Of a stretch of 64,000 nt of DNA, positions 38,531 to 58,956 are shown piece after piece. The DNA comes from an uncultured Prevotellaceae bacterium (GTDB lineage: Bacteria; Bacteroidota; Bacteroidia; Bacteroidales; Bacteroidaceae), in NCBI GenBank assembly GCA_900316505.1, contig ONDH01000009.1, positions 1 to 64,000 of the forward strand. The letters run 5' to 3'. Below the pieces are notes generated by a model that worked only from the letters and a program-made list of their open reading frames with translations, was not told where the DNA came from and made no database searches. Positions within the stretch are counted from its first letter, which is position 1; each line of letters starts with the position of its first letter. The translations under genes and the position numbers were made by a program.

Positions 38531-38562
38531 TTTGTTACATAAAATATTTTTTTGTAAGTTTG
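38531..38562 (+). promoter_or_regulatory. Promoter of the GH43 gene
   Basis: TTTG (38531-38534), a 20-nt spacer and TAAGTTTG (38555-38562) match the Bacteroidetes consensus. The ATG follows 26 nt later. Confidence 0.8.
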
Positions 38563-38588
38563 CCGCGAATTTGAAATTAGATCTATTT

Positions 38589-40812: not shown

Positions 40813-40813
40813 A

Positions 40814-40836
40814 GGGGCTCTTGAAGCCCCTTTTTT
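40814..40836 (+). terminator. Terminator of the GH43 gene
   Basis: GGGGCT (40814-40819) pairs with AGCCCC (40825-40830) around a 5-nt loop, followed by six T. Confidence 0.88.
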
Positions 40837-41011: not shown

Positions 41012-41043
41012 TTTGCTTATATCTTGAAAAAGTCGTTTCTTTG
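41012..41043 (+). promoter_or_regulatory. Promoter of the FAS1/Sus locus
   Basis: TTTG (41012-41015), a 20-nt spacer and TTTCTTTG (41036-41043) give a consensus-like promoter with one deviation at the first A of the -7 box. The leader to the ATG at 41177 would be about 125 nt. Confidence 0.65.
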
Positions 41044-41061: not shown

Positions 41062-41089
41062 CGTGGGAATTTGGCCAAATATGACCACG
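41062..41089 (+). promoter_or_regulatory. Nested palindrome in the FAS1/Sus leader
   Basis: A perfect 12-bp palindrome, ATTTGGCCAAAT (41069-41080), is enclosed by CGTGG (41062-41066) and CCACG (41085-41089). It starts 18 nt after the -7 box, near the expected transcription start. It could be an operator or a 5' UTR hairpin. Confidence 0.6.
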
Positions 41090-41176: not shown

Positions 41177-44044
41177 ATGTTGTATAACTTTCAGAGGAAA
41201 AAACTGTGCAGACACCTCTTGGTAGGGGGTGCGCTGTGTGCTGCAGGTTTGGGAATTTTCTCATGTTCTGACCGTTACAACTTGGATGAAGACCAGCCTT
41301 CAGGTCTGGACAACATCTATGGGTACATGAAGAACAAGGGTAACTTCACCAACTATCTGCATCTGATTGACGATCTTGGACAGGCTGAGATTCTTTCCAA
41401 GACCGGTAGTAAAACAATGTTCATCGCTGACGATGATGCGTTCGCGGATTTCTACGCGCACAACGATTGGGGTGTCAAGAAGTATGAAGACCTCTCGCTG
41501 GCGCAGAAGAAGCTCTTGCTCAACACGTCAATGATTGACAACCCGTATTCGACCACGATGCTCTCGTCAGCTCAGGCTCCAGGTACAGGTCGTCCAGCGA
41601 AAGGTGAGGTTTGCCGTCGTGCCACATCGATGTCGTTACTCGACTCCGTGATGGTCATTTCAACCAAGGAAGCAGACGGCATTCTGCCCGACAACCCGTA
41701 TTTCAACGAGATGCGTGCCAACCGCGATACTATCGTCCTTTTCACGGATGCATCGAATCCAGCACCTATGCTTCATTTCACGGGTAAGTTCGTGACATCT
41801 AACCAGCTGAGTTTCTCGGACATTGATTTCATCTACAATCAGCCAGAAGGAACATTCCACTCAGATGACATTTACGTCAACAATTCTCGTGTGACCAATG
41901 CCAACATTTTCTGTAAGAACGGTTTCGTTCATCAGGTGGATAAGGTGGTTGTTCCATTGGACAATATGTCAGAAATCATTCGCAAGAGTCCAAAGATGAC
42001 TATCTTCAGCAGCATTATTGAGCGTTTCGCTGCACCTAAAGACTCTCTCAATTTGCGTGAGACTTTCAACCTGTCGAAAGGAACAAACTATGACTCTGTT
42101 TTTGTGAAGCGCTACTTCTCTGACCGCTCATTCGGTTCAACGATGGCAAGCAGCGTGAAGTTCATGTATGACAAAAACGGAAACACATTCGACGGTTCTT
42201 TGAAATTCGACCCAGGATGGAACGGTTACATTCCTGAAATCGCCAACGACCGTCAACCAATGATGGAAGATATGGCAATCATGTTGGTGCCATCCGACCA
42301 GGCTATCCAGAACTGGTGGAACGGTGGTGTGATTGAGAAGTACTATGGTACAATCGAGAACACGCCAAGTTCTGTGCTTGACGACTTGATTCGTGTGAAC
42401 CAGATTCAGGCCTTCACCTCTTCTGTTCCTTCCAAGTTCAACGCAGTGCTGAACGATGCAAACGAACCTCTCGGCATCACCAAGGAAGATGTGGATAGCG
42501 TATATCTCGGTTGTAATGGTCTTGTGTTCCTGACCAACAAGGTGTTTGCTCCTGCATCATACTCTTCAGTGTTGTTCCCTGCAGTGATTGACAAGACTCA
42601 CTTCACAGTGATGGACAATGTCATTACACCAATGAACTACAACTACTACCTCAACTCTATGGTGTCTCGTTTCATCTTCCTTCTTCCAACCAACGATGGT
42701 CTCTTGACTTACATCGACCCTGTTTCTTATGGTCAGACCGTGAAGAGAATGTGGGAGTTCAAGTTGGATGAGAAACTGCAGCTCTATGCAAGCATCTATG
42801 AGTGCGATGAGAATGAGGATGGCACATTCACCAAGAGAGGCACAGCAACTCCTCTCAGAGGCGGTGTGAGCAACGGCATTCTCAACAACCGTATGGAAGA
42901 CTTGCTCGACAACATCATCGTGGTGGAGCCATTCCGTGAAGGTAAGAAGTACTATAAGACCAAGGGCCGCAATTTCGTGAAGATTGAGAAGAAGGGCGAG
43001 AAGAACTATGAAGTTTCTGGCTCTTACCACAATAACATTGGTCAGCCATTGGTAACTGTTGACGCTTATGATGGCGAAGACATCCGCAATGGTATCACCC
43101 TTGCATTGGATGGCGTTGTAATGGGTACTCCTAATTCTGTAGCCAAGACTCTGCATGATGCAGTGGTTCCTGGCATGGATCCGGAGAATAACGATTCTAT
43201 CTTCAAAGAGTTCTTCGGCATCGTTGAGGCATGTGCTGTTAGCAAGGCTAACTCGAAGAACGGCTGGCAGGCTGCTGACCAGACTTATGGAAACCTCTTC
43301 AACCTGAAGGCTCCTGGCTTGATCGGTTCAGAGGATGCAACGACCAACAAGGCAACTTACTTGTTGAACAACTACCACTATACTGTATATGCACCAACGA
43401 ATGCAGCCATGAAGAAGGCTTATGAAGCAGGACTCCCAACACTGGAAGACCTTGCAGCAGCCGAGGAATATGACTTGGAAATGGGTTATACAGGTCCAGG
43501 TTCAACTGCAGAAGACAACTTGAAGTCTCGTGCAGACTCCATCAAGGAAGTGATGCTTGATTTCGTGAAGTATCATATTCAGGACAATGCTATTTTCGTT
43601 GACGTGGATACAGCAGGTGTCTTCGAAACTGGTAAGACAGAGTTGATCAAGGCCACTCAGGTGGACGAGGCAACAGGCGAAGAGTCATGGGGTGGCAAGT
43701 ATTCTCCCGGACGTCCTTACAAATTGGATGTCAAGGTGGAAGGTGGCCAGATGTACGTAACAGACTGCCGCAATGGATATTCAGGTGAAAAAGCTTTGGG
43801 CGGAAATCAGACCAAGGTGGTCATCAAGGATGGTGCTTACAACCTGATGGCACGTGAATATTGGTTGGAAAGCTCCGGTGCTATCACTAATCCTAATAAT
43901 GTGAGACTCAACAACTCTTCATTTGTTGTCATTCACGCTATCGAGGATCCATTGATTTTTGCAGATGGCGCTCACTACGATTCTAAGGGTAACGAAATCG
44001 CAACCCAATTCGTCTATTCTTATAAGCCACTTACATCAGAATAA
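41177..44044 (+). CDS. Multi-FAS1-domain surface lipoprotein
   Basis: A 955-residue lipoprotein. Its signal sequence ends LGIFSC, with Cys30 as the lipidated residue, followed by S-D and nearby acidic residues, as in Bacteroidetes lipoproteins exported to the cell surface. Several fasciclin (FAS1, beta-Ig-h3) domains can be traced. One starts near 55 (YLHLIDDLGQAEILSKTGSKTMFIADDDAF), another near 280 (MTIFSSIIERF), and a well-preserved late one is near 715 (HYTVYAPTNAAMKKAYEAGLPTLEDL). FAS1 domains mediate adhesion or carbohydrate and protein binding; no hydrolase motif is seen. It is first in the locus, 11 nt before susC. The substrate is unknown. Confidence 0.82.
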   Translation: MLYNFQRKKLCRHLLVGGALCAAGLGIFSCSDRYNLDEDQPSGLDNIYGYMKNKGNFTNYLHLIDDLGQAEILSKTGSKTMFIADDDAFADFYAHNDWGVKKYEDLSLAQKKLLLNTSMIDNPYSTTMLSSAQAPGTGRPAKGEVCRRATSMSLLDSVMVISTKEADGILPDNPYFNEMRANRDTIVLFTDASNPAPMLHFTGKFVTSNQLSFSDIDFIYNQPEGTFHSDDIYVNNSRVTNANIFCKNGFVHQVDKVVVPLDNMSEIIRKSPKMTIFSSIIERFAAPKDSLNLRETFNLSKGTNYDSVFVKRYFSDRSFGSTMASSVKFMYDKNGNTFDGSLKFDPGWNGYIPEIANDRQPMMEDMAIMLVPSDQAIQNWWNGGVIEKYYGTIENTPSSVLDDLIRVNQIQAFTSSVPSKFNAVLNDANEPLGITKEDVDSVYLGCNGLVFLTNKVFAPASYSSVLFPAVIDKTHFTVMDNVITPMNYNYYLNSMVSRFIFLLPTNDGLLTYIDPVSYGQTVKRMWEFKLDEKLQLYASIYECDENEDGTFTKRGTATPLRGGVSNGILNNRMEDLLDNIIVVEPFREGKKYYKTKGRNFVKIEKKGEKNYEVSGSYHNNIGQPLVTVDAYDGEDIRNGITLALDGVVMGTPNSVAKTLHDAVVPGMDPENNDSIFKEFFGIVEACAVSKANSKNGWQAADQTYGNLFNLKAPGLIGSEDATTNKATYLLNNYHYTVYAPTNAAMKKAYEAGLPTLEDLAAAEEYDLEMGYTGPGSTAEDNLKSRADSIKEVMLDFVKYHIQDNAIFVDVDTAGVFETGKTELIKATQVDEATGEESWGGKYSPGRPYKLDVKVEGGQMYVTDCRNGYSGEKALGGNQTKVVIKDGAYNLMAREYWLESSGAITNPNNVRLNNSSFVVIHAIEDPLIFADGAHYDSKGNEIATQFVYSYKPLTSE

Positions 44045-44055
44045 TAGTTCAGAAT

Positions 44056-47000
44056 ATGAAAAAAATAATATCAACCCTCATGCTTTTAGCGTGCTTCTGT
44101 GTTCAGATGAGCGCGCAAGTAAAGGCGGGCGACATTATCAGCGGTCAGGTTTGGGATGATTTCGACCCTTTGATGATGTGTAATGTGGTGGAAGTTGACC
44201 ACAACAATCGTATCGTCGCCCATGGAACTACCGATATCAACGGTAACTTCTCTTTTGCAATTAAGAATCCTAAGGATAAGATCCGAATCTCTTACATCGG
44301 TTGTCAGACAGTGGAGCTGCCTATCAACAAGAAAGCTTTCGGAAAGATTGTCCTTAAGAGTAATACTGTCATTACAGACGTTGTGGTCACTGCTGTCCGC
44401 AGGAGCCCGAGCACAGGTCTCGCCATCCCAATGGACCAGATTGCCACAGCAGCTCAAACCATTGACATGAAAGAGTTTGAAGGTGTCGGTATGACATCTG
44501 TCGATGAAGCTCTTCAAGGACGTATTGCAGGTCTTGACATCGTTGCCAACTCAGGTGACCTTGGTGCAGGTACCACTATCCGTCTTCGTGGTGTATCCAC
44601 CATTCATGGTAACCAGAACCCACTTATCGTTGTGAACGGTAACCCCATCACAGTGGAAGATGGCTTCGATTATGAGAATGCCAACAACGAGCGCTTCGCT
44701 GAACTCTTGCAGGTGAACCCTGATGATATCGAGTCCATCACCGTCCTCAAGGATGCTGCTGCGCAGACTATTTGGGGTTCGAAAGGTGCCAATGGTGTCA
44801 TTGAAATCAAGACTAAGCGCGGTGTGAGAGGTAAGACGAGAGTCAGCTACAACTACCGTTTCACTGGCAACTGGATTTACAAGCGTTATAAGCTGCTCAA
44901 TGGTGACGACTACACCATGTACATGAAGGAGGCATACTTCAATCCTCGTCAGGAGTCCAGCTTCGCTGACAAATCTTCTAACAACTTCATCCCTGAAATT
45001 GCTTATGCACCAGAATGGGCTGAATATAATATGTATAATGATAACACTGACTGGGTGGACGCCGTTACACAGTTCGGTATGCAGCATTCACACAGTGTCA
45101 ACCTGAGTGGTGGTGGTGAGAAGGCAACCTTCCGCGTTTCTGGTGGTTGGGATACACAGAGCAACTACGTCATCAAGCAGGGCATGAATCGTTTCACTAC
45201 TCGTGTGGCACTCGACTACAACGTGTCTGACCGTATCAAGGTTTCTACGAACTTTGACTTCAACTATACAGACCGTGACCTTCACAACACAGGCAGTGCT
45301 ATCGGTATCGCTCAGCGTAAGATGCCAAACTTGTCCATCTATCGTGAAGATGCGAACGGCAATGACACAGATGAGTTCTATACGATGAACTACTGGATTA
45401 CCAGACAGACTGGTGTGTATGCCGCAAGCACATATCTGGAAGACCAATACAACATGGTGAACCCTGTGGCTCAGGCATACAATTCTTATCAGAAGACGAC
45501 AAGCTTGAACCTCCGTCCTGAGTTTATCTTTAGATATGACATCTTGGGCACTCAACCAGAGCAGCATCAGCTCCGTTATGAGGGACAGATCCTGTTTGAT
45601 ATCGCAAACGATGAGGGTAGCAGCTACATCCCAGGATGGCTGTCTTCCAACTCAATGTTCTCAGGTAACTACAACTCAGCTTCGGCTAATAGTTCAAAGC
45701 GTCATAACATGTCCACTCGCCACTCTCTCACGTTCACTCCTTATTTGAAGAATGGTCACTCTTTGATGGTGATGGGACGTTACGATTTCGGACAGGGTAA
45801 TAGCTCTAACCAGAACACTGGTAAGCGTATGATGCCAACAACGGCTGACATCACTTCAACATTGGCAGGTGGTGTGATTTCTGGCTTTGGTTCAGGTGCA
45901 GGTCATTCAAAGAGCCAGAACCTGACTTTCCAGGCTCACTATTCTTATAAAGGACGCTATAGTGTAACAGGTGTACTTCGTGGTGACTGTACTACATCTT
46001 TCGGTCCAGACCGCCCATGGGGTTTCTTCCCTGCATTGTCTGGTCGTTGGAACATCAGCAAGGAGCCATTCATGGAGAAAGTAAGATGGCTTTCTATGTT
46101 GTCAATCCGTCCATCATGGGGTTATTCTGGTCGTGCACCGGGTGGTGACCTCTGGCGTTCTAAGTATGGAACAGGACCTTCCTATATGGACGTTTCATCA
46201 GTTGTTCCTAACAATATCCGTTTGGCTGGTCTGAGATATGAGAAGAAAGTCTCTTATCAGGTTGGTTTCGACTTCGGTTTCTATCTGGATGAGAAGCGTA
46301 CAAAGACTATTGATGGTAACATCGATATTTACACAGCCAAGACAACTGACTTGTTGCAGAATGGTTATGGCATTCCTACTTCTTCAGGTTACACTTCTTT
46401 GAGCTATTATAACGATGGTTCTATGCGTAACCAAGGATGGGAGTTCAACATTAATGCGAACAAATTTGTGACAATCGGTAAGGATTTCTCTATGGATTTC
46501 AACATCTCTTTTGCAAACAACCGCAACCGAGTTCTTTCAATGGATCCAACCTGTCTGGATGGCTTGAATGAAGAATTTAAGTACGAAAATAAGCAGTATC
46601 TCTCTCGTGTTCAGCTGAATAACCCGTTGAACTCCATCTACGGTTTCCGCTATAAGGGTGTTTATGCTTATTCAGAATATTCTGATGAGGAAGTGGAAGG
46701 CTTGAGCGGTCCAAACTCTCCTGTGGTTCGTAATGAAAAGGGTGAACCTATCTTTGATTCGACTGGTGCTCCTAAGATGATGTACTTCAACTATGGTGGA
46801 ACAACTCAGTATGCATTTGTGGGTGGTGATGCTATCTATGAGGACATCAACCATGATGGTCAGATTAATGAGCTTGATATCGTTTACCTGGGTTCATCTC
46901 TGCCAAAGATCACTGGTGGTTTCGGTACTAAGTTCCACTATAAGAGATGGGATCTCAACTTGCAGTTCAACTTCCGTACAGGCTTCAAGGTGATTAACTC

Positions 47001-47403
47001 TGCTCGCGCGGACTTGGAGAACATGTCCAACAACAACAACCAGTCGATTGCAGTGAACTGGCGTTGGCACAATGAAGGTGATGTTGCACCTCTTCCACGT
47101 GCTGCCACAACAAAGACTCAGTTCGACACTTACAACTATTTGGGTTCTGACCGATTCGTGGAAGATGCTTCTTTCCTTCGTCTGAACTACTGTCAGCTGT
47201 CATATTCGTTCGACCCCAAGACGCTGAAGAAGTGGGGCTTGGCTTCACTGCGTCTCAATATGCTGATCAACAATGCATTCTGTCTCACCAAGTATTCAGG
47301 TCTTGACCCAGAACACGGTGCCAGCACCTACCGACCAGCTACAGATGGTGACACGAACCCACGTTCACGTTCAATCCAATTCGGTATTAATGTTTCATTC
47401 TAA
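44056..47403 (+). CDS. SusC-like TonB-linked outer-membrane transporter (first)
   Basis: A 1115-residue outer-membrane importer driven by TonB. After the signal peptide (ending QMSAQ) come a carboxypeptidase-regulatory-like beta domain (about 25-105), a plug (about 115-240) and a barrel ending RSIQFGINVSF with the terminal Phe. The plug shows DEALQGRIAGLDIV, TIRLRGVSTIHGNQNPLIVVNG and the SusC hallmark ESITVLKDAAAQTIWGSKGANGVIEIKT. With SusD it should form a lid-and-barrel complex taking up a glycan or peptide captured by surface lipoproteins. Spacing to susD is 18 nt. Confidence 0.93.
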   Translation: MKKIISTLMLLACFCVQMSAQVKAGDIISGQVWDDFDPLMMCNVVEVDHNNRIVAHGTTDINGNFSFAIKNPKDKIRISYIGCQTVELPINKKAFGKIVLKSNTVITDVVVTAVRRSPSTGLAIPMDQIATAAQTIDMKEFEGVGMTSVDEALQGRIAGLDIVANSGDLGAGTTIRLRGVSTIHGNQNPLIVVNGNPITVEDGFDYENANNERFAELLQVNPDDIESITVLKDAAAQTIWGSKGANGVIEIKTKRGVRGKTRVSYNYRFTGNWIYKRYKLLNGDDYTMYMKEAYFNPRQESSFADKSSNNFIPEIAYAPEWAEYNMYNDNTDWVDAVTQFGMQHSHSVNLSGGGEKATFRVSGGWDTQSNYVIKQGMNRFTTRVALDYNVSDRIKVSTNFDFNYTDRDLHNTGSAIGIAQRKMPNLSIYREDANGNDTDEFYTMNYWITRQTGVYAASTYLEDQYNMVNPVAQAYNSYQKTTSLNLRPEFIFRYDILGTQPEQHQLRYEGQILFDIANDEGSSYIPGWLSSNSMFSGNYNSASANSSKRHNMSTRHSLTFTPYLKNGHSLMVMGRYDFGQGNSSNQNTGKRMMPTTADITSTLAGGVISGFGSGAGHSKSQNLTFQAHYSYKGRYSVTGVLRGDCTTSFGPDRPWGFFPALSGRWNISKEPFMEKVRWLSMLSIRPSWGYSGRAPGGDLWRSKYGTGPSYMDVSSVVPNNIRLAGLRYEKKVSYQVGFDFGFYLDEKRTKTIDGNIDIYTAKTTDLLQNGYGIPTSSGYTSLSYYNDGSMRNQGWEFNINANKFVTIGKDFSMDFNISFANNRNRVLSMDPTCLDGLNEEFKYENKQYLSRVQLNNPLNSIYGFRYKGVYAYSEYSDEEVEGLSGPNSPVVRNEKGEPIFDSTGAPKMMYFNYGGTTQYAFVGGDAIYEDINHDGQINELDIVYLGSSLPKITGGFGTKFHYKRWDLNLQFNFRTGFKVINSARADLENMSNNNNQSIAVNWRWHNEGDVAPLPRAATTKTQFDTYNYLGSDRFVEDASFLRLNYCQLSYSFDPKTLKKWGLASLRLNMLINNAFCLTKYSGLDPEHGASTYRPATDGDTNPRSRSIQFGINVSF

Positions 47404-47421
47404 TTTAATAGGCTTAAAGTC

Positions 47422-49347
47422 ATGAAAAAGATAAAAAATAGAATATTATCGGCTGTAGCATTGGCGGTTGCGGGACTTGGTCTCAGCTCTTGCGACATCG
47501 ACCTGCTCCCTCTCAATGAGGTGGTCTATGAGAACTTCTGGACCAACAAGGATGACGTGGAGAGTGTGGTTACTTCCTGCTATGGAGCCTTTCAGGATCG
47601 TGATGTCGTGGAACGAATGATTGTTTGGGGTGAAGACCGCTCTGACAATGTTCAAGCTGGACAGGATCAGTCTGAAGACTTGAGATTTTTGCTGAAAGGT
47701 AGTATTAAGACGACCAACAAATTCTGTGAGTGGAGTCCGCTCTACAAGGTCATCAATTATTGTAACATTGCCATGTTTGAGGCTCCTCAGGTGATGCAGA
47801 AAGACCCGAACTATACCGAGTCTGACTATCGCGTGAACAAGGCTGAGTGCTCATTCATCCGTGACTATTGCTACTTGACACTCATCAAGACGTTCAGGGA
47901 CGTTCCTTTCACTTTCGAACCTTCTTTGGACGACACGCAGACTTATCGCTTGCCTCAGACAAAGTTTGAGGTGGTGCTGGATTCACTGATTAAAGACATT
48001 GAAGCCTGCAAGGATTATGCACCTCTGCGTAACACTAACCAGACATTGAAAGCTGGTGTGGATAACACTCAGAACACAGGTAAGGTGACTCGTCCTGCAA
48101 TGTATGCTCTGCTGGCTGAGCTTTATTTGTGGCGTGCTTCTGATTACAACCTTTCCAAGGATAAGCAGAATGAGTACTACAGGAAGTGTATTGATTGCTG
48201 CGACTGGGTGCTTGCTTATAAGATGCAGCGCTATGATGAGGGTGATGTTAAGGAAGACATAGACCAGGAAGTGTACAAGGATTATGGTTACCCATTGTTG
48301 GCTGAGGAAGTTTCTGTCGGTCACAATGAGAATGGTCCTGCTGCAACAAATGCCATCTTTGGTACAGGTGCTTCTTTCGAAACACTGTTCGAGATTACTT
48401 ATTATAATTCAGTTCTGAACAGAAGTTATGGAAATAATACAGCTGTGAAGAACCAGTATGGTGAAAGTTCTCGTACGCAGAATGTGAAGGCTGCTGAAGA
48501 CTTGTTTGAGACCAAGCCCAACTCTACTGACAGCTATTCTGACACTCGATTGTTCTCTGTGCCATCAGATTACAGAAGCATTGCTTCTTTCTATTATAAT
48601 GAAGAAAGTGGTGTGTCCAGTATCTACAAGTATATGATTGACAGAAATAGGGCAGGTGCCTCTTCTTCCACAGAATATGGAAGTGTCGGTTCTTCATTCA
48701 CTGCAGCTCGTAGTTCTCAGTCATATCGTAATACGTCACCGAACTGGATTCTTTATCGTTTGACAGAAGTGATGTTGTTCCGTGCTGAAGCTGAAATCGA
48801 ACTGGCATTCAACATGGATGCTTCTGAGAAGGAGGCTGAAGGTGAGAATGCTGAGGGTGAACAAGGTGAACAGGAAGGTGAAGGCACAGGCTCAGAGGCA
48901 GGTTCAAAGATGCGCAAGGCATCAGTGTTGGTACGTGGTAATTCTCTGACTACAGCCGATGAACTGAAGCTGGATGCGTTCAACCTGATTTCAGCAGTTT
49001 ATCGCCGCTCAAATCCTGTGGTGCAGACCAAGAAGCAGTATGCTCCTGAACAGCCACAGACCTATGACACATTCCACAAGTTGTTGATGAATGAACGTAG
49101 ACGTGAGTTCCTCTTTGAGGGTAAGCGTTTCTATGACTTGGTACGTGCTGCACGTCGCGTTGGTAACACCCAGGAGATGCGTCAGGCATTGGCTACCAAA
49201 TACAGTGAGGCTGGTCCTGCTGTTGCCATCAAGTTGATTCAGATGGGCTTCATGTATATGCCAGTCGCAAGAAAGGAAATGAAGATTAATCCAGCTCTTG
49301 TCCAGAATGAAAGCTATTTGGATGAGGATGAAAATAAAAAACAGTAA
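47422..49347 (+). CDS. SusD/RagB-like surface lipoprotein (first)
   Basis: A 641-residue lipoprotein with lipobox GLSSC (Cys24), the lid partner of the preceding SusC. It shows the SusD helical scaffold: NFWTNKDDVESVVTSCYGAF near the start, AECSFIRDYCYLTLIKTFRDVPF, ALLAELYLWRA, and the C-terminal LLMNERRREFLFEGKRFYDLVRA. An unusual Glu/Gly-rich stretch (about 467-497, KEAEGENAEGEQGEQEGEG) interrupts the scaffold and is probably a surface loop. It ends three bases before the next FAS1 gene. Confidence 0.93.
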   Translation: MKKIKNRILSAVALAVAGLGLSSCDIDLLPLNEVVYENFWTNKDDVESVVTSCYGAFQDRDVVERMIVWGEDRSDNVQAGQDQSEDLRFLLKGSIKTTNKFCEWSPLYKVINYCNIAMFEAPQVMQKDPNYTESDYRVNKAECSFIRDYCYLTLIKTFRDVPFTFEPSLDDTQTYRLPQTKFEVVLDSLIKDIEACKDYAPLRNTNQTLKAGVDNTQNTGKVTRPAMYALLAELYLWRASDYNLSKDKQNEYYRKCIDCCDWVLAYKMQRYDEGDVKEDIDQEVYKDYGYPLLAEEVSVGHNENGPAATNAIFGTGASFETLFEITYYNSVLNRSYGNNTAVKNQYGESSRTQNVKAAEDLFETKPNSTDSYSDTRLFSVPSDYRSIASFYYNEESGVSSIYKYMIDRNRAGASSSTEYGSVGSSFTAARSSQSYRNTSPNWILYRLTEVMLFRAEAEIELAFNMDASEKEAEGENAEGEQGEQEGEGTGSEAGSKMRKASVLVRGNSLTTADELKLDAFNLISAVYRRSNPVVQTKKQYAPEQPQTYDTFHKLLMNERRREFLFEGKRFYDLVRAARRVGNTQEMRQALATKYSEAGPAVAIKLIQMGFMYMPVARKEMKINPALVQNESYLDEDENKKQ

Positions 49348-49350
49348 GTT

Positions 49351-51483
49351 ATGAGATTATCAGGAATTAAATTCTGGGCAGTTGCCCTCTTTGTAGTTGC
49401 GTCTATCCAGGTGGCGGTTGTGAGCTGTTCTGATGACCCTGGTGTGGAGAACTACTATACGCAGTCCCGAGAATATGCTGCCGACTACTTGAAGAATCGT
49501 GAGCAGTACTCTGAGTACTTGAAGATTCTTGAGCGCGCAAGGGGAGAATATGACCTCCGTCTTGTCGATATGTTGGGCACATATGGCTCGTACACCGTGT
49601 TTGCTCCTACAAACGCGGCTGTGGAGAAGTATCTGGCAGAGCGTGGATTGAGCTCTGTGGATGAGTTGTCTGTTCAAGACTGCGATACGATTGCGTTGAA
49701 CTCAATCATCGAAGCAGCGTATTTTACGACAGACTTCAATGATGGTCAATATCCTAAGTCTAACATGTTGGAGCACATCGTTAGTGTGAAGTCTTATCAG
49801 GAGTGGGATGCACAGAAGCAAGACTCTGTCTTGGCTATGTACATCAACCAAAACTCACCTGTTATTCATGCTGACGACTCTGTGTCGAACGGTGTGGTTC
49901 ATACCGTGAGCGCGATTGTGGGTTCCAGCAACGACCTGATTGGCACTGTGATTTTGAGTGACTCAACCTGTCTGTTTTATGGTCAGGCTTTCCAGGTGAC
50001 TGGCATCTTGGACACCCTTCAGGATCACTATGTGGATGACACTTATGGATGGGCTAATGACAAGGATCGTATTGACTCTTGTACATGGACTAACACCAAG
50101 TTGTGTATCCCAACTGCTAAGCACTTGGATGGCTCTGGCGGTGAGTACGACAACGTGGCTTATCCTGTGAAGCGTTACTTCAATTATACAGTGTTCATGT
50201 GCCCTGACTCTATCTTGAAGGAGAAATATGGTGTCACGACGCTTTTGGGCAAGAATGATCCCAGCTCTTTGGAGTATCTGGCTCACCAGCTCTATGACCC
50301 CATGTATCCAGAAGATGCAGACAATGATGAATTGACTGACCGCAAGAACGCCCTCAATCGCTTCATCTCCTATCATGTGATTGACCGCTATGGTGACTAT
50401 TACAGCCTGACGTCAATGGATAACAACGACTTGCAGTATAATTTCAACCGTATGAAGTATGACATCTGTGACTGGTATGGAACTTTGATGCCTCAGTCAT
50501 TGATGAAGTTCTCCTTCCCTAATGGTCCTCAGGTCGGTTTGTACATCAACCGTCGAGGTGTCCGTCACCATGCTGACGAACGTGGTGGTTATTACCGTGG
50601 TGCAAAGATTGCTTCACCGAAGGAGTATACCAGAACTACTACGGCTTTGAACGGTATGTATCATTATATCGATGACGTTGTGGCATACGACCGAAACATG
50701 CAGGAAATAGTCATGAACGATTGTATCCGTCTTGACTGTACGACCTTGTCTCCTGACTTCATGACTAAGTTGACAGATGGTGAGGTTGCACGTGGTCACA
50801 CATGGGGCGGCAATAAGAAGTATGATGGTGCAAAGAACACCAACAACCCATCGGATAACAACAACCGAAGCGTTGGTTTCAAGCCAGGTTACGCACGTAA
50901 CTTTGAGATGACTGCCAACACCCACATGCACGTACGTGGCCGTTCACTTTGGTTCTGGTCATACGAGGGTGATGAGGTAATCTTCAAGGGACGTTATGAC
51001 TTCACTTTGAAGTTGCCAGCTGTACCTGCAGGTACATACGAGGTTCGTATGATGACTTGTGTGGGCTTTGATACACGTGGTATCGTGCAGTATTACATCG
51101 ATGGCGAGCCTCAAGGCATTCCATTTGACATGCGCCCAGGTGGACGTACCTTGTTTGGATGGAAGAATGATACAGACTTGGGTGATGACGATGCTATCAC
51201 AGCATTTGACAAAGCCATTCACAACATTGGTTGGATGAAAGGACCTAAGTGCTATCATTGCGGATGGCGTAGCAGTTTCGATGCGGGTTCTGCCACCATG
51301 CGTGCTCAGGACAACACAATCCGTAAGGTCATTGGTACCTTCACTACGGATGGTAAGTCTGACCACTTCTTGAGAATACAACAGAAGATGGAGTCTGAGA
51401 ACAACGAGTTGAACTTCGACTTTATCGAGCTTTGTCCAAGTTCTGTATATAACAATGAATACTTTGCGGAACCGACTTGGTAA
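49351..51483 (+). CDS. FAS1-domain surface lipoprotein with C-terminal beta domain
   Basis: A 710-residue lipoprotein; the signal ends VAVVSC (Cys26), followed by SDD. A FAS1 domain begins near 55 (LKILERARGEYDLRLVDMLGTYGSYTVFAPTNAAVEKYL) and closes with SNGVVHTVSAIV. A second, more diverged one occupies about 205-445. From about 470 there is a beta-sandwich-like domain (FTLKLPAVPAGTYEVRMMTCVGF, YYIDGEPQGIPFDMR) resembling the C-terminal modules of DUF5108-type fasciclin proteins; this name is tentative. It directly follows susD and probably belongs to the same transcript. Confidence 0.78.
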   Translation: MRLSGIKFWAVALFVVASIQVAVVSCSDDPGVENYYTQSREYAADYLKNREQYSEYLKILERARGEYDLRLVDMLGTYGSYTVFAPTNAAVEKYLAERGLSSVDELSVQDCDTIALNSIIEAAYFTTDFNDGQYPKSNMLEHIVSVKSYQEWDAQKQDSVLAMYINQNSPVIHADDSVSNGVVHTVSAIVGSSNDLIGTVILSDSTCLFYGQAFQVTGILDTLQDHYVDDTYGWANDKDRIDSCTWTNTKLCIPTAKHLDGSGGEYDNVAYPVKRYFNYTVFMCPDSILKEKYGVTTLLGKNDPSSLEYLAHQLYDPMYPEDADNDELTDRKNALNRFISYHVIDRYGDYYSLTSMDNNDLQYNFNRMKYDICDWYGTLMPQSLMKFSFPNGPQVGLYINRRGVRHHADERGGYYRGAKIASPKEYTRTTTALNGMYHYIDDVVAYDRNMQEIVMNDCIRLDCTTLSPDFMTKLTDGEVARGHTWGGNKKYDGAKNTNNPSDNNNRSVGFKPGYARNFEMTANTHMHVRGRSLWFWSYEGDEVIFKGRYDFTLKLPAVPAGTYEVRMMTCVGFDTRGIVQYYIDGEPQGIPFDMRPGGRTLFGWKNDTDLGDDDAITAFDKAIHNIGWMKGPKCYHCGWRSSFDAGSATMRAQDNTIRKVIGTFTTDGKSDHFLRIQQKMESENNELNFDFIELCPSSVYNNEYFAEPTW

Positions 51484-51492
51484 ATAACCTTT

Positions 51493-51527
51493 CAGCCACC
51501 TTGCCCTTCATCGGGCAGGGTAGGCTG
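51493..51527 (+). promoter_or_regulatory. Intercistronic hairpin within the FAS1/Sus locus
   Basis: CAGCC...CCT-TGCCC (51493-51506) pairs with GGGCA-GGG...GGCTG (51513-51527) around a 6-nt loop, about 13 bp with one small irregularity. No U run follows, so it is not a full terminator. It sits in the only long gap (67 nt) of the locus and divides it into two halves that each end with SusC-SusD components. Confidence 0.65.
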
Positions 51528-51550
51528 GCAATGACAATTAAAGAAATAAT

Positions 51551-53452
51551 ATGAATAATATCAAAAATACATTCCGTGCCGGATTTGTGCTAGCAGCAGG
51601 ACTCGTAGCGATGTACTCATGTTCTGACACATGGGACGACCACTACAATGCAGGTCTGTCAGCACTCAAGTTCAATGGCACAACGATGCAGGCTCTTGAA
51701 GAGACTGCACCCGATTTCGCCAAGGTTGTCAAGGCGTATGGGTTCTCTCGTGAACTTTCTTCTGATAACACATACACCGTGTGGGCACCCGCAGATGGTT
51801 CTTTTGAACTCTCGGACTATGTAGGAGCCAATGGCGAGAGAGTGGCAGATTCAGCAGAAGTGGTGAATGACTTCATCAAGAATCACGTGGCACTTTACCC
51901 GTTGTCTCTCACTCCAAAGGATCAATCTTTCAGCCTTTTGAATGAGAAGAGAGGAAGCATGACTTCTGATGGTATGTTTGGTCATATCAAGATTGATGAA
52001 CAGAAGAACAATATTTCATGTCAGAATGGTATCGTTCACCTTATCGAAAGCCCATCTCCTTATGCTTACAATCTTTTCGAAATGATTGCCAAGCAATACA
52101 AGGAGGATCCTGAAGCCGGTAAGGACACGCTTTCTCTTTATGCTTATCTTTATGACGAGAAGGTGAATAAGGATACATTGATCGAGAACAAATCTGTAAG
52201 CCGCGGTGTGGACGCTGACGGTAATAAGATCTGGGTGAGCCAGTACTTGGAGAAGAACAACACTGTGCTCAAGAACTATGATGCACGTCTTTACGAAGAG
52301 GATTCTCTCTTCATCGCGATTCTTCCTTCAGCTAAGGCTTGGGGTGAACGCTACAAGAAGGCTGCTTCACTCTTGCAGTTCAATCCATCCGAGGACAATC
52401 GTGCTGCAGGCACTTGCGACTCTTTGACACGTCACTATGCAAATTCTTTTGCTATGACAGACTTGTTCTACAACAAGAATGCCAATGAGCATTGGGAAGA
52501 CTCTCTGAAGTCCACCAATTATTACAATTCTTGGCATGGCGTTGTCGACTGGACACAGCATGTGTATTACAGCAAGGAGCCTAAGTATATGCCAGAAGAC
52601 AAAGAAATCAATGACATCTTGGCTAAGTGCGGAGAACCAGTAGAGTGCTCTAACGGTACTGCTTATCTTGTTGATGAATATCCTTTCTCAGCAGTGGAAC
52701 AGTTCTTTAAGAAAATCAAGGTGACTGCATCTGATGGAGCTGTGAACAAATTGGGTTCTGGTGACAACTGGACTTACACGAAGGGTGTTCAGAAGTCTTT
52801 CGGTGCTCGTTCAGGTATTTTTGTTTCATCCATTCCTACTTACGACGAAGAAGGTGAACAGACGGGCGTGGACCAAAAGCGTCAGAATTATCGCTTTGTA
52901 GATTTCGTTCCTACAAGTGGTAACATCACGGTTGGTTTCAATGTGCCTAATACACTTTCAGGCTTGTATGACATTTACATTGTCACTTGCCCAATGTGGT
53001 TGGCATCCGATTTCAACAATATTGACATGGCAGAATGGGATGTTCGTCCTTATCGCTTCACAGCCACTATTATTGAGCGTGAGAATGAGGGTAAGAACAT
53101 CGGTCAATTCCCAACAAAGGGTAAGACACTTGAGAATCCAGATCCTATTGATGAGAAGCAGAAGACCGTCTTCTTGTCTCAGGGCATGATTTATGACGAT
53201 GCTGGTCATATCATCGTGAATGATACGACTTATCTGGGTCAGTATCAGTTCAAGAACGCTTATTATGGCAGAGCTGATTATGGTGTTATCATCCAGATTG
53301 CATCATCCATCCTTTCCAGCCAGAGAAAAGACTTCTCTAACGAAATGCTCATCAGTTCTATCATTCTGAAGCCACATGATGAAGATACAGTGGCAGAAGA
53401 AGCAAAAACGAGAAAAAGTATTCAGTTGACAACTTCTAATATACGTAAATAG
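51551..53452 (+). CDS. FAS1-domain surface lipoprotein (third)
   Basis: A 633-residue lipoprotein with signal ending AMYSC (Cys24), then SDTWDD. The FAS1 domain runs from about 38 to 180: ALEETAPDFAKVVKAYGFSRELSSDNTYTVWAPADGSF at the start and CQNGIVHLIESPSPYAYNLFEMI at the end. A second diverged FAS1-like part follows (to about 390, CSNGTAYLVDEYPF). The C-terminal third is beta rich and resembles the ending of the preceding FAS1 protein (NITVGFNVPNTLSGLYDIYIVTCPMW). It ends two bases before the second susC. Confidence 0.78.
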   Translation: MNNIKNTFRAGFVLAAGLVAMYSCSDTWDDHYNAGLSALKFNGTTMQALEETAPDFAKVVKAYGFSRELSSDNTYTVWAPADGSFELSDYVGANGERVADSAEVVNDFIKNHVALYPLSLTPKDQSFSLLNEKRGSMTSDGMFGHIKIDEQKNNISCQNGIVHLIESPSPYAYNLFEMIAKQYKEDPEAGKDTLSLYAYLYDEKVNKDTLIENKSVSRGVDADGNKIWVSQYLEKNNTVLKNYDARLYEEDSLFIAILPSAKAWGERYKKAASLLQFNPSEDNRAAGTCDSLTRHYANSFAMTDLFYNKNANEHWEDSLKSTNYYNSWHGVVDWTQHVYYSKEPKYMPEDKEINDILAKCGEPVECSNGTAYLVDEYPFSAVEQFFKKIKVTASDGAVNKLGSGDNWTYTKGVQKSFGARSGIFVSSIPTYDEEGEQTGVDQKRQNYRFVDFVPTSGNITVGFNVPNTLSGLYDIYIVTCPMWLASDFNNIDMAEWDVRPYRFTATIIERENEGKNIGQFPTKGKTLENPDPIDEKQKTVFLSQGMIYDDAGHIIVNDTTYLGQYQFKNAYYGRADYGVIIQIASSILSSQRKDFSNEMLISSIILKPHDEDTVAEEAKTRKSIQLTTSNIRK

Positions 53453-53454
53453 TT

Positions 53455-56400
53455 ATGCAGCACTTCAATAAATATGGAATCGCAGCATTCATGTTCTTCC
53501 TTGGAACCGCACTTCCAGCTGTTGCACAGGATGAGGTACAGGAGGAGGTAACAGAGGTAGCTGCACCTATCAAAAAGGTTAAGCCAGCGAAGACATACCC
53601 AACGATTGACGTGACGGGTAAAGTGGTGGATGCTGTTACAGGCGAACCACTTGCCGGTGTTCAGCTTCAGGCTTTCAACAACAAGTATTATACTGCCATG
53701 ACCGACGAGAATGGTGCATTCACCATTCAGGTTCCTAAGTTTATCACGGCACTTTCTGCTCGCCTTGAGGGTTACAACTTGAACAATGTTTCTCTCAACG
53801 GTCGCACCAGTGGTGTGAATATCCTCATGCAGTCAAACCTCTTGAAGGGTGATTATACAACTAATGCTTCTGCTCGTAAAAGCGTGACAGAAGAATCATT
53901 TGTGAACACACCCGCTTTGACCATCGACCAAGAGATTCAGAATCGTTTGGGCGCCGATGTGAGAAGCATTCAGCGTTCAGCTAATCCGGCTGAAGGCGTT
54001 GCGATGTTCATCAACGGTTTGAACTCTTTGAACTCAAACGCCATGCCACTGATTGTAGTGGATGATGTTGTGTACGACATGTTGTATGATGCAACCATGT
54101 TGCACACAGGTTACTTCAACAACCTGTTGCAGGCAATCAATGTGGATGACATCGAATCAGTAGAGGTATTGAAGAATGGAACGGCATTCTACGGCGCGAA
54201 AGCAGCCAATGGTGTCATTCGCATCAAGACCAAGCGCTGCCATTCAATGGCAACCCGCATCGATGTGAACATCAATGCAGGTCTTGAGCTCAGACCTAAG
54301 AACTTCGACCTGATGAATGCTGGTCAGTATCGTTCCTATGCTTCAAACCTTTTGCAGACAACGAACACCACTCTGACGGAGTTCAAGTTCTTGCATTCAG
54401 AGCCAGACTACTATTATTATAATGTGTATCACAATAATACAGACTGGAACAAGGAAATTTCAAGAACAGCATTTACGCAGAACTATGGCATCTCTATCCA
54501 AGGTGGTGATGACATCGCACAGTATAACCTCTCTGTAGGCTATGGTGACGCTAAGTCAACACTGAAGAGAAATGACATGCAGCGCTTCAATGTACGTTTC
54601 AATACAGACATCGTGCTGAACAAGTGGTTCTACACACAGTTTGATGCCAGCTATACGAACGTAACACGCAACTTGCGTAGCGATGGTTGGGAGAACAATC
54701 AGTTCTTGCAGGCATTGGCTTCACCAAGTGCATTGGCTAACATTAAGGCTCCTTTCTTGAGCCCTTATGACTTCGCTACAGACCGTCATGAGACAGACTT
54801 CATCGCAGATGCTGATGATTATCTGAACGAGGTTTGGGGTAGCATCAACACAACCAGAGCTCAGGTTGCCAACCCTGTTGCTGTTCTTGCAAACGGTGAG
54901 GCAAAGAACAAGAACCACTCTGATTGTACGATGATCAACGTATCTATCGCTCCAACATGGGAACCAACGAATAATTTCTCTTTGACAGAGAAGTTCAGCT
55001 ACACTCTTCAGAGTTTGGATGAGGCTTACTTCACTCCAATCATTGGTATGCCTACTTATACACTTCCTGGTAATCTGGACGCTACGGAGAACTCCAAGTA
55101 TACCATGTACTCAAAGCACAATGCTGTGTTCTCTGATACACGTGCAGATTGGAAGATTCTTCCTAATGGTCCACACCGTGTGGAATTGTTGGGCGGTATC
55201 CGTTTCATGAACGATATTTACAGAGCATCTTATCTGTATGCTGATGGTACTGGTAGTGATAAGACTCCAAATACCGGTAGTAAGAACAGAAAGATTGATG
55301 GTACTGACACGAACTGGAGAACTTTGGCTTACTACGCTAATGTGGATTACAACTACATGGGCAAGTATTATTTGACAGGTCAGTTGTCAATGGAAACTTC
55401 TTCACGTTTCGGTAAGAAAGCTGATGGTGGTCTGAAAATGTTTGGTGTTGCATGGGGTTTGTTCCCATCTCTCCAGGCTGCTTGGGTCATGTCAAATGAA
55501 GATTGGTTCCATACAAACAATATGGTTAACATGTTGAAACTGAATGCAGGATTCGAGTCTGTCGGCAACGATGCAATGGATAACTCAGCAACCTTGACTT
55601 ACATGGCATCAGAAATGCTGTTTGGTAATGCCAACTCTTCTCTTGGTTTGAGCAATATTGGTAGCTCTTCTCTCCAGTGGGAAACCACGAACCGTTTCAA
55701 CTTCGGTTTTGAGGGTAACTTCTTTAACAACCGCTTGAATTTGAGAGCTAACTACTTCTTCTCTAAGACCAACAACTTGATCACTCTGGGTACATTGGCT
55801 TATGTGGCAGGTATTCCTAACTACTACACTAATGATGGTGCCTTGAAGAATCATGGTTTCGATGCTGCATTCAATGCAAAGATTATCGATTCTAAACAGT
55901 TTAAGTTGGAATTGGGCGCAAGCATTGGTCACTACAAGAACAAGTTGACTCGTCTTCCACAAGGTATGAACTCTTACGAGACAAACCTCTACGGTGGAAC
56001 AGTTCTGACAGAGGTGGGTAGAAGCGCAGGTGTCTTCTACGGCTATAAGACTGAAGGAGTTTACAAGGATACAGGTGCAGCAGAGGCTGATGGTAAATTC
56101 ATCCGCGATGCATCTAACAACCCTGTATATTTCGGTGCTGGTGACATCAAGTTTGTGGACAAGGATGGTAATGGCGAAATCAATGCAAACGACCGCTTCG
56201 TCATTGGTGATCCAAATCCAGACATCTTCGGTAACATCAGCTTGAAGCTCCACTACGGAAAGAATTGGTCATTGGCTACTAACTTCAACTACTCTGTAGG
56301 TAATGACGTCTACAACTATCAGCGTGCCGTTCTGGAAGGTGGTTCAAACTTCATCAACCAGACAACAGCTGTGACTCGCAGATGGACTACAGAAGGTCAG

Positions 56401-56709
56401 ATTACAGACATGCCAAAAGCTACTTATTCAGACCCAATGGGTAACAGCCGCTTCTCTGACCGTTGGATTGAAAATGGATCTTATTTGAAGTTGAAGAATG
56501 TTACATTGTCCTATAAGGTGCCAATCCAGAATGAATACATTCAGGGTTTGACTTTCTGGGCTGCAGCTAACAACCTCTTTACGCTGACAAAGTATCTGGG
56601 TCCTGATCCAGAAATCTCTTGTGGCAACAGTGTTTTGTATCAGGGAATCGATGCTGGCTACCTGTCTTCAGGCCGCAGTTTCCATCTTGGTGTTAAGATT
56701 AACCTCTAA
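53455..56709 (+). CDS. SusC-like TonB-linked outer-membrane transporter (second)
   Basis: A 1084-residue TonB-dependent importer. The signal peptide ends PAVAQ. A longer acidic and basic spacer precedes the regulatory-like domain (about 50-130, VTGKVVDAVTGEPLAGVQLQAF). The plug carries DIESVEVLKNGTAFYGAKAANGVIRIKT, with NGTAFY replacing the common DASAAIY. The barrel ends SFHLGVKINL rather than with an aromatic residue. It is clearly diverged from the first SusC, so the two pairs are not a recent duplication and may take different cargo. Confidence 0.92.
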   Translation: MQHFNKYGIAAFMFFLGTALPAVAQDEVQEEVTEVAAPIKKVKPAKTYPTIDVTGKVVDAVTGEPLAGVQLQAFNNKYYTAMTDENGAFTIQVPKFITALSARLEGYNLNNVSLNGRTSGVNILMQSNLLKGDYTTNASARKSVTEESFVNTPALTIDQEIQNRLGADVRSIQRSANPAEGVAMFINGLNSLNSNAMPLIVVDDVVYDMLYDATMLHTGYFNNLLQAINVDDIESVEVLKNGTAFYGAKAANGVIRIKTKRCHSMATRIDVNINAGLELRPKNFDLMNAGQYRSYASNLLQTTNTTLTEFKFLHSEPDYYYYNVYHNNTDWNKEISRTAFTQNYGISIQGGDDIAQYNLSVGYGDAKSTLKRNDMQRFNVRFNTDIVLNKWFYTQFDASYTNVTRNLRSDGWENNQFLQALASPSALANIKAPFLSPYDFATDRHETDFIADADDYLNEVWGSINTTRAQVANPVAVLANGEAKNKNHSDCTMINVSIAPTWEPTNNFSLTEKFSYTLQSLDEAYFTPIIGMPTYTLPGNLDATENSKYTMYSKHNAVFSDTRADWKILPNGPHRVELLGGIRFMNDIYRASYLYADGTGSDKTPNTGSKNRKIDGTDTNWRTLAYYANVDYNYMGKYYLTGQLSMETSSRFGKKADGGLKMFGVAWGLFPSLQAAWVMSNEDWFHTNNMVNMLKLNAGFESVGNDAMDNSATLTYMASEMLFGNANSSLGLSNIGSSSLQWETTNRFNFGFEGNFFNNRLNLRANYFFSKTNNLITLGTLAYVAGIPNYYTNDGALKNHGFDAAFNAKIIDSKQFKLELGASIGHYKNKLTRLPQGMNSYETNLYGGTVLTEVGRSAGVFYGYKTEGVYKDTGAAEADGKFIRDASNNPVYFGAGDIKFVDKDGNGEINANDRFVIGDPNPDIFGNISLKLHYGKNWSLATNFNYSVGNDVYNYQRAVLEGGSNFINQTTAVTRRWTTEGQITDMPKATYSDPMGNSRFSDRWIENGSYLKLKNVTLSYKVPIQNEYIQGLTFWAAANNLFTLTKYLGPDPEISCGNSVLYQGIDAGYLSSGRSFHLGVKINL

Positions 56710-56721
56710 TTTGTATCAATC

Positions 56722-58824
56722 ATGAAAATGAAATCTATTATAAAATGTGGCTTGCTTTTGCTTGTACTCGGAACAGCCACTGTGTCATGCGAGGATATGT
56801 TCACGGCTGACAACACGCTTGTGACAACAGAACTTGCTCCACAAGACACACTTTATCAGATGATGGGTATCATCAAGCGTATGCAGAAGCTGGCAGACCG
56901 CACAGTGCTGTTGGGTGAGGTGAGAGCCGACCTCGTCGATGTGGATCCACTCCATGCGTCAGCAGACATCCAAGAGCTTGCTGCGAACAACGTGTCTGCC
57001 ACAAATGTGTACAATCAGCCTTCTGATTACTATGCAGTCATCAACAGCTGTAATATATATTTGGCTTACGTTGACTCTATGCGTAACTCACAGGGCACCC
57101 GTAAATATTTTGAGAAGGAGATACTTGCAGCCAAGTGTTTTCGTGCATGGTGCTATCTCGAACTGCTCAAGATTTATGGTGACGTTCCTTATATCCGCAC
57201 TCCCATCCTGAATTCTGACAATGCTGAAGAAATTGTGGCATCTGGCAAGAAAGAGGGAATGGTCACTATCGTGACGGATATGATTAACGATCTGGCGAAT
57301 TTCCGTGCAGCTGAAAATGACGAATTACGTCAGAGTTATGGTGACAGAACTTTCAATAACATTCGTTATTCTCAGATGGTTATTCCTGTACGCGCCATGT
57401 TGGCAGAGCTTTACTTGTGGCGTGGTTCCTACACTGGTAATCAAACGGATTACATCAATGCTATCCGTATGTATCATGATTACTTCACTTTCCCAGGTGA
57501 GGAAATCAACACGGGAAGAGCCAAAGCAAACTGGCCGTCTCGTGATTCCGAGCGTCCAAGTACTTCTGATTACAATAGTAACTTTCTGGCTGCTTCACAA
57601 TGTGCAGGTGTGCTCCCAATGGAGACTTCCCAGTACTATGGAACAGTTTCCAAGTTGAGAGGTGTGTTCTGCTCACTTGACTCGAATAACTATTATCCTG
57701 CAGTGGTTGCTTCTCAGCGTGCAAAGGATATTTCAAAGGCACAAGACTATTGCCAATTCCTCGTAGAGGGCGGTGGTCTGCCAGAGATTTATTTCCGTGA
57801 GCACGATCCAAACCTCTATTCTGAATACAAGACTATGGAGGGTGACCTTCGCTTGTATTCAGTTTCTGATGGTCCTGACAATGTGAAGGACAACTCCTCT
57901 AACAGTCACGAGAACAGCAGCTACAACAACATGTACTATCTGAACCGCAAGTATGGTACTACAACCAATGGTAACAGCTATTTGCCATTTGTTCCATACT
58001 TCCGTAACAACATCCTGTATCTGCACTTTGCAGAGGCACTCAATCGCGCTGGTTTCCCAGAGACAGCCTTTGCTATCCTCAAGTATGGTCTTTCCTACTA
58101 TACATTGACTAATCGCGACATCGTCTCTAAAGACGAGTTCGACCGTCTTAGTTTGATTACTTCTATTGGCTTCACCGTTCAGGAACCTAAGTTTACGGAT
58201 GATGATCTTAAGAAGCAGACCACTGGTACTGCTGCTATTTGGAGTTCAGATGTATTCGCTACTTACTTCATCGTTCCTCTGGATCAGATGAATCCTCAGA
58301 GAATTATTGAGGGCGGTAACTACATCCAGGTGGGTATTCACTCATTCGGTAGTGGTGACTCTGAGTACAATGACAGATACTTCCTGGATGATGAAGAGAC
58401 AAAGAGTGGCTTGAAGGCTTATAAAGAGGATCTCGAATTGGAAGAAGTTCCTCGTTTGAGCAGAAATTCCACTCATGAAGACTCTGTAGAGTATGACCGC
58501 GTGGTTGCTTACAATGCTTACGCAGATTCTGTGAATATCGCTCAAAAGGATAGCGTTGACTCTTACAATGCAGAGTATCTGGCATCTCCAGACATCCGCA
58601 CAAAACGTCAAGCTCACGTTTCTAAGCTCATCCTTGAAGAGGAAGCTCTTGAGGGTGTGTTCGAAGGTCAGCGTTTCTACGACATCATGCGTTACCAGAT
58701 GCAGGAGATGGGTGGTGCAGCTATCGGCACAACCATTACAATGCCTGCATACATCGAGGAGAAGTATGGCACTACCACTAAGATGGCTGGTAAGCCTTGG
58801 TTCCTCAAGCTACCGTCGTGGTGA
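56722..58824 (+). CDS. SusD/RagB-like surface lipoprotein (second)
   Basis: A 700-residue lipoprotein (Cys23 in TATVSC, then EDMF) forming the lid of the second SusC. The family features are YYAVINSCNIYLAYVDSM, AAKCFRAWCYLELLKIYGDVPYIRTPI, MLAELYLWRGSY and, near the end, LILEEEALEGVFEGQRFYDIMRY. A charged stretch near 560-630 (EEVPRLSRNSTHEDSVEYDR) is an insertion relative to short SusD proteins. Last gene of the locus, before the strong terminator at 58863. Confidence 0.92.
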   Translation: MKMKSIIKCGLLLLVLGTATVSCEDMFTADNTLVTTELAPQDTLYQMMGIIKRMQKLADRTVLLGEVRADLVDVDPLHASADIQELAANNVSATNVYNQPSDYYAVINSCNIYLAYVDSMRNSQGTRKYFEKEILAAKCFRAWCYLELLKIYGDVPYIRTPILNSDNAEEIVASGKKEGMVTIVTDMINDLANFRAAENDELRQSYGDRTFNNIRYSQMVIPVRAMLAELYLWRGSYTGNQTDYINAIRMYHDYFTFPGEEINTGRAKANWPSRDSERPSTSDYNSNFLAASQCAGVLPMETSQYYGTVSKLRGVFCSLDSNNYYPAVVASQRAKDISKAQDYCQFLVEGGGLPEIYFREHDPNLYSEYKTMEGDLRLYSVSDGPDNVKDNSSNSHENSSYNNMYYLNRKYGTTTNGNSYLPFVPYFRNNILYLHFAEALNRAGFPETAFAILKYGLSYYTLTNRDIVSKDEFDRLSLITSIGFTVQEPKFTDDDLKKQTTGTAAIWSSDVFATYFIVPLDQMNPQRIIEGGNYIQVGIHSFGSGDSEYNDRYFLDDEETKSGLKAYKEDLELEEVPRLSRNSTHEDSVEYDRVVAYNAYADSVNIAQKDSVDSYNAEYLASPDIRTKRQAHVSKLILEEEALEGVFEGQRFYDIMRYQMQEMGGAAIGTTITMPAYIEEKYGTTTKMAGKPWFLKLPSW

Positions 58825-58862
58825 TGTTTTGCCTCAAATGAGGTGACAAGATAAGAAGAAAG

Positions 58863-58899
58863 GAAGTTCTGAGCAGAAATGCTTGGAACTTCTTTTTTT
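58863..58899 (+). terminator. Terminator of the FAS1/Sus locus
   Basis: GAAGTTC plus TGAGCA pairs with TGCTTG plus GAACTTC, 13 bp with two G-U pairs, around a GAAA tetraloop, followed by seven T. It ends just before the promoter of the next gene. Confidence 0.93.
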
Positions 58900-58916
58900 G
58901 TTTCAACAATTTTCTA

Positions 58917-58924
58917 TATCTTTG
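58917..58924 (+). promoter_or_regulatory. -7 promoter element of the PEP/pyruvate-binding gene
   Basis: TATCTTTG followed by C matches the consensus, 32 nt before the ATG at 58957. A TTTG at 58897-58900 is only 16 nt upstream, shorter than the usual spacer, and overlaps the terminator U run. Confidence 0.65.
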
Positions 58925-58956
58925 CAACAAGAAACATCATTGTTTACCCATTCCTT

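Follow-up and report, generated by a model that had tools for sequence, protein, structure and literature searches.

Organisation of the seven-gene operon

The window analysed here, a 64,000-nt stretch of DNA from an uncultured Prevotellaceae bacterium, contains a run of seven genes on the + strand (41177-58824) in the order FAS1–SusC1–SusD1–FAS1–FAS1–SusC2–SusD2, all of which were located as open reading frames (ORFs). Profile searches placed Fasciclin (PF02469) above the cut-off in genes 1, 4 and 5 (Pfam), SusC/RagA (TIGR04056) in genes 2 and 6 (NCBIfam) and SusD_RagB in genes 3 and 7, and the N-termini of the FAS1 and SusD proteins carry a lipobox followed by acidic residues. The genes and signals of the operon and its upstream neighbour are, in window coordinates:

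38532..40736, + strand: GH43 endo-arabinanase-like gene, true start probably 38589 (Pfam GH43 and GH43_C; NCBIfam AbnB 244 bits, below cut-off)
40813-40831: terminator between the GH43 gene and the operon
41012..41043, + strand: candidate promoter, TTTG (-33, 41012-41015) and TTTCTTTG (-7, 41036-41043), spacing about 20 nt (conserved in ten aligned leaders)
41063..41088, + strand: 5' leader hairpin, a covarying 4-bp stem around the invariant ATTTGGCCAAAT (41069-41080) (aligned leaders, covariation)
41177..44044, + strand: FAS-A, FAS1-domain surface lipoprotein of 955 aa, operon gene 1 (Pfam Fasciclin 48.9 bits; lipobox FSCSD)
44056..47403, + strand: SusC1, SusC/RagA outer-membrane transporter with TonB-box-like ITDVVVTAV (TIGR04056 647 bits)
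47422..49347, + strand: SusD1 lipoprotein lid (SusD_RagB PF07980 59.6 bits)
49351..51483, + strand: FAS-B, FAS1 lipoprotein with a C-terminal beta-rich domain (Pfam Fasciclin 49 bits; structural model; Foldseek)
51492..51528, + strand: internal hairpin between FAS-B and FAS-C (z -4.8; compensating changes in relatives)
51551..53452, + strand: FAS-C, FAS1 lipoprotein in the place of BT4167, which binds rhamnogalacturonan I (RG-I) (Fasciclin 23.9 bits; PMC8002723)
53455..56709, + strand: SusC2, second SusC/RagA protein, without a recognisable TonB box (TIGR04056 541 bits; TonB-box test)
56722..58824, + strand: SusD2 lipoprotein lid (SusD_RagB and SusD-like_3)
58856..58899, + strand: intrinsic terminator after SusD2 (-25.2 kcal/mol, z -7.6)

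The gaps between the genes are, in order, 11, 18, 3, 67, 2 and 12 nt, and cross-hits put SusC1 and SusC2 at about 24–26% identity. The candidate promoter is of the Bacteroidota -33/-7 kind, and its match is kept in ten loci. The original prediction, which had described seven co-oriented genes in this order, mostly 2–18 nt apart, behind one promoter and with two strongly diverged SusC proteins, one internal hairpin and a strong terminator, therefore holds in its account of the layout, both folded elements having been recovered by computation. Its further statement that the locus lacks enzymes and regulators stands in part. No enzyme gene lies inside 41177-58824, but a co-oriented GH43 arabinanase-like gene is found 440 nt upstream, behind its own terminator; likewise, no sensor or regulator gene was found within the seven genes or adjoining them in the window, but a conserved leader element had been overlooked. 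With respect to the usual components of a PUL, the window thus holds two SusC/SusD pairs and no enzyme inside the operon, the GH43 gene belonging to a separate transcript.

Upstream of the GH43 gene are the genes for S11, S4, RpoA and L17, and a PPDK_N-domain protein is encoded downstream of the operon. The mechanical ORF start of this protein falls inside the operon terminator (window 58879-58959), and translation probably begins at the ATG at 58957. The position downstream of rplQ is often kept in the window's subclade, with or without GH43; GH43 is a frequent neighbour of the operon in relatives and the usual one in this subclade. The close relatives of the source genome are MAGs, mostly from ruminant, other herbivore and horse guts. 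Only five SusC proteins were detected in the window's genome (G000) at E 1e-30, two of them encoded in the operon, compared with 49 in a Bacteroides-type genome (G289).

Conservation across Bacteroidota

The same order (a-C1-D1-b-c-C2-D2) was recovered in 67 complete operons across Bacteroidota, a total that counts the window itself and may include near-identical genomes under two names. It recurs throughout the window's genus, one of the rumen and herbivore gut, with FAS-B identities of 28–99%, and extends to further genera, families and classes of Bacteroidota. Public genomes provided 41 complete copies among 79 loci, 8 further copies in Bacteroides-type genomes brought the total to 67, and one single-contig genome (G267) carries three copies. 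All three non-Sus proteins of the distant copies are also Fasciclin proteins (Pfam), and FAS-B profiles built from both ends of the range aligned over nearly their full length with a probability of 100%. Because the order recurs in 67 operons, the seven-gene arrangement is far beyond chance. The original prediction had left it to other Bacteroidetes genomes whether the same order exists elsewhere and whether the FAS1 genes stay next to the Sus pairs, and these operons show both.

A few irregularities were observed. In one relative (G002 C17:43957-46091, L046) a stop or frameshift, perhaps due to faulty assembly, splits FAS-B while the other genes of the operon are intact, and in one operon (L155) SusD1-like ORFs occur as a tandem pair. 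More distant operon copies are repeatedly preceded immediately by a gene for a CotH-kinase protein with DUF4859 (L126:2-1840, L145:3-1679 and similar), a domain that also occurs on GH127 and other proteins adjoining a solo FAS-B gene (L149).

Structure and solo paralogues of FAS-B

Structure prediction for FAS-B was poor with 12 sequences (pLDDT 64.8), while an AlphaFold2 model built with 75 homologues reached a pLDDT of 88.8 and a pTM of 0.82. The model comprises a FAS1-type N-terminal part and a beta-rich C-terminal domain. Foldseek retrieved the FAS1 proteins TGFBIp, periostin and fasciclin I, with a best E of 4e-11. It also gave matches of borderline significance to CBM35 structures, including 2w47 with unsaturated galacturonic acid (E 1.5e-3), a weak likeness of fold only. 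Pectin lyases generate products that carry this sugar.

The window's genome also encodes a solo FAS-B paralogue, about 75% identical (L005:12049-14157, G000 C34), flanked by a GH8 gene and a GH30/GH59-like gene. At eight solo FAS-B loci in relatives, a neighbour comes from one cluster and its start reads like that GH8 protein. Some rumen-type genera have many FAS-B copies per genome.

Association with RG-I enzymes

In several relatives the operon lies inside an RG-I locus with PL11, GH28, GH105, GH106, CE12-like esterases or a hybrid two-component sensor (HTCS). Across the fetched flanks of 26 wider loci, PL11 (tracked through RGL11_C) was found in 9, GH28 in 10, CE12-like esterases in 7, GH106 in 3 and rhamnose isomerase, kinase or RhaT-like genes in 2; Pfam confirmed the enzyme assignments for representative neighbours. 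About half of the 26 loci have none of these RG-I markers nearby; the window is therefore not alone in having an enzyme-free form. Among the richer examples, the operon adjoins GH28, an acetylesterase, PL11 and a CE12-like esterase in G289, and PL11 and GH28 in another Bacteroides-type genome (G820, 5.98 Mb). In G581 it is near two PL11 genes, GH106, PL22 and GH95, as well as a putative rhamnose isomerase, rhamnulokinase and RhaT-like permease, named by sequence inspection without a profile. Both operon copies of a 6.47-Mb genome (G740) are near PL11 and GH28, and one of them also has GH2, an esterase–GH105 (YteR-like) protein and an HTCS.

The association extends to the level of whole genomes. 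Among 396 genomes of the phylum, the operon was present in 8 (two profiles agree) and PL11 in 21, with an overlap of 7; PL11 thus occurs in 7/8 operon-bearing genomes vs 14/388 others (Fisher p=3.1e-9), and the co-occurrence persists (p=1.4e-5) after dropping the window's own genome and collapsing one genus, a crude reduction of relatedness. In 15 genomes, 6 PL11 genes were linked to the operon against 0.5 expected (p=1.4e-5; p=0.014 per locus). Three genomes (G119, G050 and G336) have the operon or its FAS-B and no PL11; in G336, GH115 adjoins the operon or FAS-B, with GH28 and GH106 in the vicinity as well. Two PL11 genes are present in the window's genome on contigs other than that of the operon: one on C16, where it directly follows a GH43 gene, and one on C23. 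The organism should therefore be able to cut RG-I, though its enzymes are encoded away from the importer.

Comparison with known loci and proposed function

The closest counterpart that we found in the literature is the Bacteroides thetaiotaomicron region BT4145–BT4183 (PUL77), which was assigned to RG-I by Martens et al. (PMC3243724) and in which BT_4163 is listed (PMC13088901). This region has two SusCD pairs with two genes between them and BT4163 just before, the same places as in the window operon. By gene number only, BT4163–BT4169 fill the places from FAS-A to SusD2, with BT4167 in the place of FAS-C. According to a review (PMC8002723), B. thetaiotaomicron binds RG-I through its surface protein BT4167 and takes it up through BT4164/BT4165 and BT4168/BT4169. 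By the yardstick of the original prediction itself, correspondence to a catalogued locus with a known substrate counts against it; matched by gene position, the order corresponds to such a locus, with RG-I as the substrate. The B. thetaiotaomicron module is embedded among lyases, hydrolases, esterases and HTCS sensors, whereas the window operon stands alone beside ribosomal genes and GH43. A literature search, limited in subscription papers, retrieved no report naming the BT4163–BT4169 proteins as fasciclins, and one on fasciclin with SusD retrieved nothing relevant; that the three accessory lipoproteins are all FAS1-type appears to be a new feature.

Other systems share parts of this layout. 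PUL 50 of Bacteroides xylanisolvens XB1A (RG-I) combines GH28, GH105, GH106 and PL11 with several SusCD pairs (PMC4769552), but has a regulator and enzymes, both of which are lacking in the window operon. The Prevotella/Segatella xylan locus has two tandem SusCD pairs like the window operon (PMC11784079); it differs in carrying GH10 and an HTCS, in gene order and in that FAS1 proteins are not reported for it. In the levan importer BT1762–BT1763, a SusCD pair and surface lipoproteins capture and import a glycan, as proposed here, but with one SusCD pair whose SusC needs its TonB box (PMC7782687), a box that the window's SusC2 lacks.

Taken together, the enzyme context, the tracking with PL11 and the positional match to BT4163–BT4169 indicate that this is most likely an RG-I/pectin module and not one for host-matrix uptake. 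We consider it probable that the operon is the surface-capture and outer-membrane import part of an RG-I (pectin) utilisation system. Since its order corresponds to BT4163–BT4169 by gene position, the enzyme-free form is, by analogy, a dispersed version of the known RG-I import module, detached from the enzymes and with FAS1 surface proteins as its hallmark. In the mechanism that we propose, the surface lipoproteins FAS-A, FAS-B and FAS-C would hold RG-I, which would be cut by a lyase encoded elsewhere in the genome (either of the two PL11 genes on other contigs being a candidate). SusD1 and SusD2 would act as lids, and the TonB-energised SusC1, probably with SusC2 as its partner, would pass the presumed oligosaccharide ligand into the periplasm, the two SusCD pairs possibly forming a joint complex. 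Capture and import by surface lipoproteins and SusCD pairs, the core of the original prediction, is thereby well supported, the FAS1 genes being conserved beside the Sus pairs.

The substrate could instead be broader. The operon may serve plant cell-wall use in general, its substrate having moved in the rumen lineages towards, for example, arabinan, arabinoxylan or mixed pectin; FAS-B would then be a broad adhesin, one that is also encoded as solo copies. The GH43 gene as usual neighbour in the window's subclade, the solo paralogue beside GH8 and GH30, the multiple FAS-B copies in some rumen-type genera and the CotH-DUF4859 and GH127 neighbours in other genera all fit this proposal. GH43 fits RG-I equally well, however, because arabinan is a side chain of RG-I, and the occurrence of two PL11 genes in the window's genome, and of two in each of two close relatives, speaks against a shift away from RG-I. 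We regard the broader module as unlikely. Xylan as the main substrate, suggested by GH8 and GH30 beside the solo FAS-B, ranks only as a rival, since PL11 points to RG-I both by its linkage to the operon and by its co-occurrence with it. The original prediction had suggested that a ligand from a host or a matrix may be captured and imported, or that adhesion may be combined with uptake, which accords with the sequence and fold similarity of the FAS1 domains to periostin and TGFBIp. This reading is very improbable and was set aside on host range and enzyme neighbours, the operon occurring in herbivore gut MAGs and in other classes of the phylum with large, environmental-type genomes, amid pectinolytic (pectin/RG-I) enzyme genes.

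If the RG-I assignment is right, an odd enzyme-free locus can be recognised as a module that imports a major component of pectin across the phylum and is defined by accessory lipoproteins of the FAS1 fold. In some rumen Bacteroidaceae this import module would be separable from its enzymes, yet it accounts for 2 of the only 5 SusC genes detected in the window's genome.

SusC2 and the TonB box

The two SusC proteins differ at the place of the TonB box. We relied on a score matrix derived from other SusCs and compared with shuffle levels, in preference to a loose pattern. By this test, 28/32 control SusCs scored above the 99% shuffle level, as did 17/59 SusC1 proteins (32/59 above the 95% level), a weaker signal than in the controls, while SusC2 gave 0/59 above 99% and 2/59 above 95%, which is chance level. 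The loose TonB-box pattern matched 62/67 SusC1 and 15/67 SusC2 proteins. In the alignments, an EVVVxA-like segment is found at the usual place in SusC1 and no such segment in SusC2; 20/21 non-Prevotella SusC2 proteins (by pattern) instead have a DVLTPLG- or TVLPFR-like segment with a conserved proline at the box position, a segment found in no SusC1. TonB boxes vary in sequence. A SusC2 without a recognisable TonB box in any of the operons scored appears to be new. For comparison, the TonB box of BT1763 (VDEVVV) is required for function (PMC7782687).

The lack of a recognisable box makes SusC2 doubtful as a stand-alone TonB-driven importer. One tentative explanation is that SusC2 has lost its TonB box, is not TonB-driven and functions only with SusC1 as its partner, the two pairs forming a hetero-oligomeric SusC1D1–SusC2D2 complex decorated by the FAS1 proteins. 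To our knowledge, no such transporter layout has been described among SusCD systems. Two independent transporters for different ligands, co-transcribed by happenstance, are an equally speculative option and compatible with any reading of the substrate; the SusCs being only about 25% identical is what independent transporters would predict, but the pairs stay together in a fixed order over the phylum and the missing box again counts against SusC2 working alone. A box-less SusC, together with a conserved leader hairpin, bears on how SusCD pairs are powered and controlled.

A conserved hairpin in the 5' leader

Upstream of FAS-A, ATTTGGCCAAAT is invariant across the window's operon subclade and occurs as one copy per genome in 6/6 genomes tested, in which the reversed pattern is not found. 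The stem around it has double changes in all four pairs (GTGG/CCAC, GCGG/CCGC, GTGA/TCAC, GCAT/ATGC), and its covariation score is 0.284; slid versions reached no more than 0.120, and shuffles scored 0.131 (sd 0.018). A covariance model of the leader returned one match per genome in three genomes and none in more distant operons, and the hairpin matched no Rfam family. A mark of a genome-wide regulon is ruled out by the single copy per genome. A plain DNA operator is less likely, since the arms covary while changing sequence and are off-centre by 2 nt relative to the palindrome, for which an RNA hairpin suits better. From the promoter match, the start site is inferred to lie near 41050, which would place the hairpin right at the start of the transcript, about 90 nt ahead of FAS-A. 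Its putative role may be that of an RNA-binding-protein site, a small-RNA site or a 5' stabiliser, and such a one-per-genome covarying leader hairpin in the window's subclade appears to be new.
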